A stretch of DNA of 64,000 bases. It comes from Bradyrhizobium sp. AZCC 1693. GTDB taxonomy: Bacteria; Pseudomonadota; Alphaproteobacteria; Rhizobiales; Xanthobacteraceae. The translations under genes and the position numbers were made by a program. This document shows positions 11,484 to 13,203 of this stretch, one piece after another. Numbering within the stretch: the first letter of the stretch is position 1; every line of letters starts with the position of its first letter. The notes under the pieces were generated by a model. The model saw nothing but the letters and a program-made list of their open reading frames with translations. It searched no databases and had not been told where the DNA came from. The stretch is taken from NCBI RefSeq assembly GCF_036924745.1, contig NZ_JAZHSD010000001.1, forward strand, positions 496,001-560,000. The letters run 5' to 3'.

Positions 11484-11530
11484 TCGCCGCGGCCTAGTGC
11501 GCAATTGCGCATCAGGCGCCGGGACCCATA
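11484..11530. repeat. Left half of a dispersed repeat split by the IS1111-type element
   Basis: This stretch contains the palindrome TGCGCAATTGCGCA (11498-11511) and ends in GCGCCGGGACCCATA. Its continuation is found 1.57 kb away at 13100 (CGCCGCGGCCCGTGG). Joined, the two give GGGACCCATACGCCGCGG, which I recognise as a string common in Bradyrhizobium intergenic repeats. The repeat at 28252-28372 shares both the TACGCCGCGG string and the GTGCGCAATTGCGCAC palindrome. Confidence 0.65.
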
Positions 11531-11543
11531 TGTGGACGGCCCC

Positions 11544-11913
11544 TGCTGGCAAGAGGCGGAACTGGTTTTTGATCGAAGCGATTGCGGCCATATGTCCGGT
11601 CTGATGATGCGGTCGCACATGACCGCTGCCAAGATGGGGTCCACAGCACGAGCTCCAAACATAGCCGCGGCGTCTTTGCACCAACGGGTCCCACGGAGTT
11701 TTGCCTCGTGACTGTGATCGATCGATCAGGTTCCATCTTCCGTTCTCGAGCAAGCTTCGGCTGCGGCGTGAGGCTTTGGGCCTCATGCCGAAGTTGATGA
11801 TCTGCGGGTCGGATATCGGGTCATGTGATTACCTTGGTTGTGTTGTGGGCGAGGCCCGGAGTGCTTCGTTTCACCGATGGCGGCTAGCTTTCGAGCGCCG
11901 CGCGCAAGCGTCG
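11544..11913 (-). ncRNA. Candidate seekRNA/bridge RNA region of the IS1111-type element
   Basis: About 370 bp without a convincing gene, lying between the transposase 3' end and the subterminal repeat. IS1111-type elements encode their target-guiding RNA in this position. Within it, read on the plus strand, GCCGCGGCGT (11664-11673) and GGGTCCC (11686-11692) are separated by 12 bases. These equal the two halves of the minus-strand target, GCCGCGGCGT followed by ATGGGTCCC, reconstructed from the flanks. The RNA ends and structure were not determined. Confidence 0.5.
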
Positions 11914-13020
11914 TCAAGGCTGGCCGGAGGCCACCGCCGTAGGCGGCGCGCAGCGGCCTTGACGTCGCGAGCACGGCGCTACCCTTGGCCTCGGGGAGAC
12001 GATGCCGGCGCGCGCCGGGTCGTAGCGTTCACCGCTGACCATCAGTTTCCAGGCGATGCGCGCGAGCTTGTTGGCGAGCGCCACGGCGGCAAGTTTCGGT
12101 GGCTTGCGCGCCACCAGATCGCGCAGCCAGGGCGAGGGATGCGCCTTGCCCTTGTTGACCTGCTGGATGACCGAGGTGGCGCCCACCACCAGGGTGCGGC
12201 GCAAGGCCTCGTCGCCGGCGCGGGTAATGACGCCGAGCCGCATCTTGCCGGCGGTGGAATGATCCTTCGGGGTCAACCCCATCCAGGCCGCGAAGTCGCG
12301 ACCGCAGCCGAAGGCATGCGGGTCGGGTGCTTTGACCGCCAGCAAGCAGCCGCCGATCGGGCCGATGGCATCGACCTCGGCAAGGCGCCGGCTCATCTCG
12401 TTCTCCCGGTGCCAGACCTTCAGCTTCGCCTCGATCTCACGCAGCTCGAGCTTCAGCCGGCCGTACTCGTCGCCGTGGATGGCGAACAGCTCTTTGGCAA
12501 GCGCGGGCACTGTTCCGTCTTCGGCAATACGCGCCAGCAGCGGCCCGACATGGGCAGGCCCTTTGGCGGCCGTCAGCCCGAACTCGGCCGCGTGGCCGCG
12601 GATGGTGTTGATGAGCTGCGTGCGATAGTCGATCAGCCGCTGGCGCGTCGTCATCAACATTTGCGCCGCTTGCTCTTCCGCACTCTTGATCCTCACGAAG
12701 CTCATGCGCGGCCGGCTCATTGCCTCGCAGACCGCATCGGAATCTCTCTGGTCGTTCTTGTTGCGCTGCACGTACGGCCTTACGTGCTGCGCTGGCAGCA
12801 GCTTCGGCTCGTGCCCCAGCGCCGTCAGCTCGCGTGCCCAGTAGTGCGACCCGCCGCAAGCTTCCAGGCCCACCTTGGTCGGCGGCAGCTGCGCGAAAAA
12901 GCTCAGGAAGTCGCGTCGGCGCAGCTTCTTGCGCAGCACCGGCCGCTCGGCCGCATCCACCCCATGCAGCTGGAAAACACTCTTGGACGTGTCCACACCA
13001 ATTCGGATAATATCGCTCAT
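11914..13020 (-). CDS. IS110 family transposase (DEDD recombinase)
   Basis: A 368-aa site-specific transposase. The N-terminal DEDD (RuvC-like) domain starts with IRIGVDTSKSVFQLHGV (first catalytic Asp in GVDTSK) and contains LEACGGSHYWARELTALGH and RNKNDQRDSDAVCEA (further acidic residues). The C-terminal transposase_20 domain carries AEVDAIGPIGGCLLAVKAPD and FAAWMGLTPKDHSTAGK, followed by the region around GATSVIQQ with the serine required in this family. The last 40 residues are Pro/Arg-rich and look like readthrough into the non-coding end. The ATG is at 13020. The protein appears intact, so the element could be active. Confidence 0.93.
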   Translation of the reverse strand: MSDIIRIGVDTSKSVFQLHGVDAAERPVLRKKLRRRDFLSFFAQLPPTKVGLEACGGSHYWARELTALGHEPKLLPAQHVRPYVQRNKNDQRDSDAVCEAMSRPRMSFVRIKSAEEQAAQMLMTTRQRLIDYRTQLINTIRGHAAEFGLTAAKGPAHVGPLLARIAEDGTVPALAKELFAIHGDEYGRLKLELREIEAKLKVWHRENEMSRRLAEVDAIGPIGGCLLAVKAPDPHAFGCGRDFAAWMGLTPKDHSTAGKMRLGVITRAGDEALRRTLVVGATSVIQQVNKGKAHPSPWLRDLVARKPPKLAAVALANKLARIAWKLMVSGERYDPARAGIVSPRPRVAPCSRRQGRCAPPTAVASGQP

Positions 13021-13099
13021 GGACGGCTCCCTTGTTTGAGATCTTTACCGACCTCATTCTGGCACATCGATGCCGTCGGGGGCCGTCCACCCCAACATA

Positions 13100-13203
13100 C
13101 GCCGCGGCCCGTGGAAGGGGCACAAGTGGAGACACCTTTTGTTGCCCTTCACATCGGTGGTTATGGGTCCCTGCTTTCGCATGCTTTCGCAGGAACGACG
13201 ATG
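13100..13203. repeat. Right half of the dispersed repeat split by the IS1111-type element
   Basis: It begins CGCCGCGGCCCGTGG and ends near TTATGGGTCCCTGC, CTTTCGCAGGAACGACG. The outer part (13156-13200) is a hairpin-forming unit with ATGGGTCCCTGCTTTCGCA followed by a short GCATGCTTTCGCAGG reiteration. It is the continuation of the sequence at 11484-11530. Confidence 0.6.

Follow-up and report, generated by a model that had tools for sequence, protein, structure and literature searches.

Structure of the Element and Its Ends

An insertion sequence of the IS1111 group is located on the minus strand at positions 11529-13097 of the window, i.e., the whole 64-kb stretch of DNA analyzed here (Table 1). 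Its transposase gene presents an intact open frame encoding 368 aa; the protein matched the Pfam families PF01548 (DEDD_Tnp_IS110; 41.3 bits, cut-off 29) and PF02371 (Transposase_20; 58.3 bits, cut-off 21.3) and carries the motifs VDTS, LEAC, and DQRDSDA, which we take to contain the DEDD residues. All three of its closest named protein matches (91, 85, and 85% identity) are Bradyrhizobium records, which suggests a host in or near Bradyrhizobium. The motif described for IS1111-group transposases, GL-P----S(t)G with an occasional TA (PMC11187229), is present in the TA variant (GLTP at position 248 and STAG at 255, giving GLTPKDHSTAG). At 368 aa, the protein lies outside the 330-350 aa reported for the group in the same paper, a range that represents a spread and no strict criterion.

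Table 1. Features of the element, its predicted RNA, and its insertion site (positions in the window)
Feature	Positions	Strand	Evidence
Right half of target with core, TGGGTCCC; repeat stem end and CCA tail	11521..11528	-	Same in three own copies; repeat alignment
Right terminal extension ATA	11529..11531	-	Family alignment of ends
Right subterminal inverted repeat, 12 bp	11532..11543	-	String check; identical in L001-L003
-35-like TTGCCA, 16 nt before the -10-like TATGTT that end joining in a circle would create	11547..11552	-	Joined-end pattern
Structured guide (bridge/seek) RNA, predicted; full match to model R1	11568..11720	-	128.4 bits, E 6.8e-38
Right donor guide: RNA ACAUA+UG, reading in the sense of right end ACATA and core TG	11589..11595	-	Covariation with right end and core across relatives
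Possible left donor guide: RNA CCCCAUC, complementary to part of left end	11633..11639	-	Weaker covariation
Left target guide (B): RNA GGCUA (11662-11666) and core UG (11660-11661), same sense as target left half	11660..11666	-	70-element scan, columns 179-183; out-of-sample test
Right target guide (T): RNA GGGACC (11687-11692) and core-facing CG (11685-11686), complementary to target top strand; last G a would-be G-T wobble	11685..11692	-	70-element scan, columns 146-151; out-of-sample test
DEDD-type transposase/recombinase	11914..13020	-	Pfam PF01548 and PF02371 above cut-off; motifs
Left subterminal inverted repeat, 12 bp	13079..13090	-	String check
Left terminal extension TGTTGGG (TG = core)	13091..13097	-	Family alignment of ends
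Left half of target, GCGTA on minus strand	13098..13102	-	Family alignment of ends; repeat alignment
Opposite end of same repeat pair, TATGGGTCCC (in GGTTATGGGTCCC), unoccupied	13162..13171	+	String check; genome site search

The transposase gene lies between perfect 12-bp subterminal inverted repeats (GTGGACGGCCCC and its reverse complement; 11-13 bp in the IS1111 group), located where a first-pass annotation, made from the sequence alone, had placed them; the IS1111 type named in that annotation also agrees with the Pfam matches, the repeats, the terminal extensions, and GLTPKDHSTAG. Its bounds for the element, 11531-13099, stood in part: deleting this interval does join GGGACCCATA to CGCCGCGG, but 11529-13097 fits better. 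Because TATG is present at both ends of this copy, both intervals give the same empty site; relatives with left flanks lacking TA fix the junctions at 11529-13097, with extensions of 7 nt on the left (TGTTGGG) and 3 nt on the right (ATA), as in the IS1111 group, and a TG core at both junctions. The stretch downstream of the transposase gene (11544-11913) is non-coding over 370 bp, as annotated.

The genome (7.6 Mb, one contig) contains three full-length, near-identical copies of the element (this copy, L002, and L003), which differ at 4 of 1569 positions, plus one left-end remnant. This truncated remnant (L004; G000:C1:4796744-4797272; 89% identity) is located at GGTGGCTA^TG and adds a fourth left flank resembling those of the full copies. 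Joining of the ends of this copy in a circle gives TTGCCA-N16-TATGTT; the pattern TTGnnn-N15-18-TATGWT was found at the joined ends of 68 of 70 elements, as compared to 2 of 1400 control windows, suggesting that the circle junction would represent a candidate promoter for the transposase and the RNA.

A Conserved RNA Fold Downstream of the Transposase Gene

A guide RNA of about 150 nt was modelled in the stretch that separates the transposase stop from the right end, its extent being predicted from a model (R1; 151 positions) whose underlying alignment contains this copy. The conserved fold contains 27 pairs in six helices (32 sequences, <90% mutual identity). Changes on both sides were found in 14 of the 27 pairs (58 such cells), as compared to 7.9 pairs (15.1 cells) in shuffled alignments, and 93.0% of cells were paired (86.0% in shuffled alignments); none of 500 shuffles reached the real alignment on any of five measures, and sliding the partners lowered pairing to 25-40%, which bears out the guide RNA that the first-pass annotation had proposed downstream of the transposase. 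Folding of the single sequence was unremarkable (z -1.76, with 12 of 200 shuffles as good or better); only the alignment revealed the structure. At E up to 0.001, R1 matched the organism's own genome only at the three copies; at E up to 1e-6, matches were present in 47 of 385 genomes of the class, own genome counted. No Rfam family matched the 64-kb window at its gathering score.

Two Target Guides Vary with the Flanking Sequence

Guides were sought by scanning every column of the RNA alignment against every flank position in both senses, with no candidate named, in 70 distinct elements. These elements were obtained from 117 loci, 91 of which had both ends, 87 also a usable left junction and flank, and 77 a distinct sequence; L010 and duplicates were then left out. 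The five strongest signals for the left flank were the consecutive columns 179-183, which read in the same sense as positions -5 to -1 (71, 80, 87, 94, and 91% identity, respectively, vs 25-31% expected). The six strongest signals for the right flank were columns 151-146, complementary to positions +3 to +8 (93, 99, 90, 91, 90, and 89% vs 34-65% expected); GGGTCCC, which the first-pass annotation had read as a target guide, thus holds as one. The 11 guide positions therefore form two unbroken diagonals that top a candidate-free scan, and no further diagonal was seen among the 45 strongest signals listed per flank. Both guides (B for the left and T for the right half of the target; Table 1) face one another within one internal loop of the fold. 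The segment complementary to the top strand lies 5′ of the one matching the bottom strand, and the two overlap in the target, which is the arrangement of the IS1111 seekRNAs described in PMC11187229, where the top-strand complement likewise precedes the bottom-strand match, with one segment per strand.

Both guides were then scored on elements that had been used neither for model building nor for guide finding, although these may share species with first-set records. The 69 model matches of this second set were reduced to 61 by setting aside eight from the own or first-set genomes, and to 45 by removing four without an aligned guide region and 12 without a recognizable right end; in 24 of the 45, the inverted repeat matched at 9 or 10 of 10 positions, and in 14 at all 10. 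Each guide was compared with its own flanks and with those of other elements in 20000 permutations, which ignore relatedness. In the 24 elements, the T guide matched its own flank at 6.42 of 8 positions (3.91 for other elements' flanks) and the B guide at 6.08 of 7 (3.28); in the 14 elements with a 10/10 repeat, the respective values were 6.86 vs 3.82 and 6.71 vs 3.19, and none of the 20000 permutations reached any of these four results. With all 45 elements, including those with uncertain ends, the T signal weakened to 5.60 vs 3.78 (AUC 0.76; still 0 of 20000). Relatives in which guide and target have changed together include L182 (AGGACC with GGTCCT), L039 (GGTAAC with GTTACC), and L040 (GGCAAC with GTTGCC).

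Genome G041 contains related elements whose guides differ: L220 and L221 carry the B guide GAGTT at a GAGTT flank, while L222 carries GTTGT at a GTTGT flank and the T guide TCGTGC at the target GCACGA; L219 also has the B guide GAGTT, and its called left flank did not match. Elements L038-L041 (three Acetobacter records and one Gluconobacter metagenome record) are inserted at TTCTG^TGGTTGCC (TTACC in L039), and in all four a second match of the same RNA model adjoins on the opposite strand. The target of L041 appears to be the right end of this neighbor plus its core, i.e., a guided element may here be aimed at another's terminus. A further group (L055, L056, L059, L061, L062, L064, and L082) shares a target around CTTGA^TGGGATTCGAAC, and in several of its members the left junction carries TG and the right one AG or TA. 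This target resembles what we take to be a tRNA T-arm; that identification was dropped, as the rejoined sites yielded no tRNA with ARAGORN.

The Target Is the Tail of a CGTC-Type Palindromic Repeat

Comparison of the insertion sites shows that the element targets the CCA tail of a CGTC-type palindromic repeat, TATGGGTCCC, which occurs 181 times in the organism's own genome, as compared to six occurrences of a backward-pattern control. All three full copies have TGGGTCCC to the right of the insertion point; the aim at a repeat of a Bradyrhizobium-like genome, as first annotated, is supported. By hand count, the first 100 of the 181 sites include 76 in 38 facing pairs with spacings of 70 to 121 bp, six in pairs split by the three copies, and 18 single sites. 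Twenty hand-picked repeat pairs aligned in the form CGTCCCTGCGAACGCAGGGACCCATA ... TATGGGTCCCTGCGTTCGCAGGGACG, with variations; one end read GGTTA in 19 pairs and GGCTA in one, and the other end GCGTA in 14, CGGTA in three, GAGTA in two, and CGATA in one. The CGTC-type palindromes of these pairs have two different inner ends. Their CGTC head, hairpin stem, and CCA tail agree with CGTC repeats as described in the text of PMC3733652, which reports few associations between these repeats and transposases and regards them as fortuitous. Among other genomes, G092 contains 35 model matches, 29 of which, among those listed, score identically (136.7 bits); the five of these equal-scoring matches that were fetched (L206-L210) all have the right flank TGGGTCCC.

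The left flanks of the three copies differ, reading GCGTA in this copy, GGTTA in L002, and GGCTA in L003. The GGCUA of this copy matches its own flank at three of five positions, the GGTTA site at four, and the GGCTA site at all five; as read, this B guide would favor GGTTA over GCGTA sites. When each copy is compared with its own left flank, this copy and L002 match at three and L003 at four of five positions (mean of the 70 elements, 4.24), and a base is missing from the T guide of L003. The imperfect match of this copy at its own site and the lost base in its sibling are what one would expect if the copy were a dead fossil whose guides decay freely. We regard this as somewhat improbable, given that the 368-aa frame is intact, the inverted repeats are perfect, the three copies are nearly identical, and the score against the RNA model is strong.

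A Second RNA Region Matches the Right End and Core

The multi-branched second region of the RNA contains ACAUAUG, which matches the right end and the core (Table 1); the first-pass reading contained no donor-recognizing loop. Because the right-end columns hardly vary among the 70 elements, a wider set was used to assess right-end covariation; within the 70, these columns are nearly invariant and allowed no test. In the 24 second-set elements, the donor loop agreed with its own right end and core at 6.50 of 7 positions (vs 5.37) and, with the core excluded, at 4.79 of 5 (vs 4.01), each reached by none of 20000 permutations, and the loop variants ACACA, ATACA, and ACAGA followed the right end.

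The core dinucleotide gave a similar picture. The core in the B guide equals the left core in 19 of the 24 elements (exceptions L132, L143, L146, L154, and L167, the last with a shifted register), and the core in the donor loop equals that of the right flank in 19 as well (exceptions L120, L132, L134, L154, and L155); some of these mismatches fall in elements with doubtful ends. In ten of the 24, the left core is not TG, and four of these ten (L132, L143, L146, and L154) were judged to have probably miscalled ends, yet were retained among the 24. In the other six (L120, L144, L155, L168, L172, and L174), the B guide carries the left core in all six cases and the donor loop the right-flank core in four; L120 and L155 have AG in the loop and GG in the flank. 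In the first set, the donor loop agrees with right end and right-flank core in 63 of 70 elements. Among the seven others, the loop keeps TG while the flank has AG (L055, L057, and L082) or TA (L061 and L078), L012 has a loop reading ACATATA, and L064 differs in both. The two CG-core elements of the first set, L054 and L060, have CG in the left end, the target, and both target guides, and they alone of the 70 carry ACATACG both in the donor loop and in right end plus core.

These data bear on whether the RNA recognizes more than its target. A seekRNA is a processed RNA of 70-100 nt that is bound to the transposase. It might be a seekRNA for the target only, the second region being structural, its match to the right end incidental, and the subterminal repeats being read by the protein; for ISEc11, an 82-nt peak RNA did suffice for transposition (PMC11187229), and no right-end position in the first set varied enough to bear on such a reading. 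We nevertheless consider it unlikely, since in the second set the loop tracks four forms of the right end (ACATA, ACACA, ATACA, and ACAGA), and partly the core, to an extent that no permutation matched, and since the CG core recurs in the loops of L054 and L060. The RNA looks like a two-ended bridge RNA that would also recognize the element's own end, and thus like more than a target seeker. Potential donor nucleotides in the multi-loop of many IS1111 orthologues have been pointed out from prediction and inspection (PMC11208160), and the covariation seen here supports them.

Evidence for a left donor guide, CCCCAUC, is only suggestive: in the 24 elements, 3 of 20000 permutations reached the observed agreement in one register and 519 of 20000 in another; in the 14 elements, the corresponding numbers were 115 and 175.

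Reading Sense of the Second Guide

The first-pass annotation had paired GGGTCCC (11686-11692) with GCCGCGGCGT (11664-11673), 12 bases away, as the two guides, and had held that identical segments at unrelated targets would count against the proposal. Both strings are present and match the junction in this copy (GCCGCGGCGT at 10 of 10 positions in the register proposed). The mean over the 70 elements in that register, however, is 2.5 of 10, which equals chance, and L002 and L003 keep GCCGCGGCGT in other left flanks that match at 3 and 6 of 10 positions, respectively; the expected covariation of the two segments with the flanks is thus seen for the GGGTCCC half and not for the GCCGCGGCGT half. 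Both segments would moreover pair with one strand, as opposed to one per strand in the seekRNAs described in PMC11187229. GCCGCGGCGT is the reverse complement of RNA ACGCCGCGGC, so that most of it falls in hairpin-stem and spacer sequence adjacent to the B guide and only the rest covers the first three bases of that guide, which overlaps GCCGCGGCGT and reads in the opposite sense. A match in the wrong sense comes easily here because GCCGCGGC is its own reverse complement; judged against the relatives, the match in this copy is a coincidence helped by this palindrome, and GCCGCGGCGT is very improbable as a guide. That the transposase protein picks the site, with guide matches as a by-product of shared descent, is more improbable still: related transposases often share targets and the permutations keep no tree, but target and guide change together within one genome (L220 and L221 vs L222) and in the relatives L182, L039, and L040, and the two diagonals emerged from a scan in which no candidate was named.

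Proposed Mechanism and Comparison with Known Systems

We are highly confident that the locus represents an IS1111-group element with a transposase and an RNA that has two target guides and a donor-matching second region, aimed at TATGGGTCCC. The transposase would act with the RNA encoded downstream of its own stop codon, before the right end. In this RNA, the first loop would hold the target: GGGACC(CG) would pair with the top strand immediately to the right of the insertion point, while GGCUA(UG), which matches the top strand immediately to its left, would be able to pair with the bottom strand. In the multi-branched region, ACAUAUG would match the right end and the shared TG core, and CCCCAUC may possibly serve the left end; joining of the ends in a circle would then create the promoter for transposase and RNA. 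For this copy, we infer transcription, RNA binding, circle formation, and mobility.

ISEc11, ISPa11, and ISKpn4, as described in PMC11187229, resemble this element in the DEDD transposase, the 12-bp subterminal repeats, the 7- and 3-nt extensions, the downstream non-coding region, the guide order, and the junction promoter pattern, and ISPa11 also targets REP sequences. The element differs from the IS1111 seekRNA elements of that paper in its target, the tail of a CGTC-type repeat, in the length of its transposase (368 vs 330-350 aa), and in having a donor loop backed by covariation. With the IS621/IS110 bridge RNA (PMC11208160), it shares one RNA whose target and donor segments have a common core dinucleotide; unlike in that system, the RNA is located downstream of the transposase, the guide order is reversed, and the donor segments lie in a multi-branched region. 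Six IS110/IS1111 elements were inspected by hand in that study. ISPpu9, ISPpu10, and ISRm19 (PMC1525189) likewise insert into palindromic repeats; here, the repeat is of the CGTC type and a guide explaining the choice of site has been identified. A search of the open-licence literature by title and start of abstract found no further work devoted to IS1111 guide RNAs.

Guide Changes among Sibling Copies and Implications

Two RNA columns vary among the three own copies, and both are among the 11 guide columns. Across within-genome copies (own genome, G036, and G194), three of six variable columns lie in the guides, as compared to 0.4 expected (p 0.006); with two cross-species sets of close relatives added, the count is five of 11 vs 0.8 expected (p 0.0006), both p values being binomial, with columns treated as independent and sets picked after inspection. 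Sets without a variable RNA column (G237 and two in G092) added nothing, and G041 (20 variable columns, six in guides) and a further set of near relatives (36, seven in guides) were left out after viewing. Automatic calling gave wrong or doubtful left flanks for L003, L009, L029, and L219, and these were not used; the flanks of L003, L009, and L029 were taken from end alignments. These counts provide a lead that guides may evolve faster than other parts of the RNA among sibling copies. Departure of ISEc11 requires guide-matching flanks (PMC11187229); by analogy, the own copies, with their imperfect guide match, may be locked in place. Conceivably, though this is less likely than not, the RNAs of IS1111 elements are complete bridge RNAs: the donor half would evolve together with right end and core, and the guides, in which copies within one genome would diverge first, would be the fastest-changing part. 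A guide mutation would then lock a copy in place and retarget its RNA, e.g., between the two ends of a repeat pair.

Sequence comparison has shown where the element ends, how its RNA folds, which two segments guide it to the target, which repeat that target is, and that the right donor guide varies together with right end and core; the element is a well-supported IS1111-group member, ordinary in kind, for which the target, both target guides, and the right donor guide have been identified. With its relatives, it provides a natural data set of dozens of IS1111 guide-target pairs, in which guides, right donor guide, and core can be read and, for new elements, predicted. The data also bear on whether IS1111 RNAs recognize the target only, as a seekRNA, or both partners, as a bridge RNA; the covariation favors recognition of both partners, and the CG-core and AG-core elements represent ready natural test cases for donor recognition.
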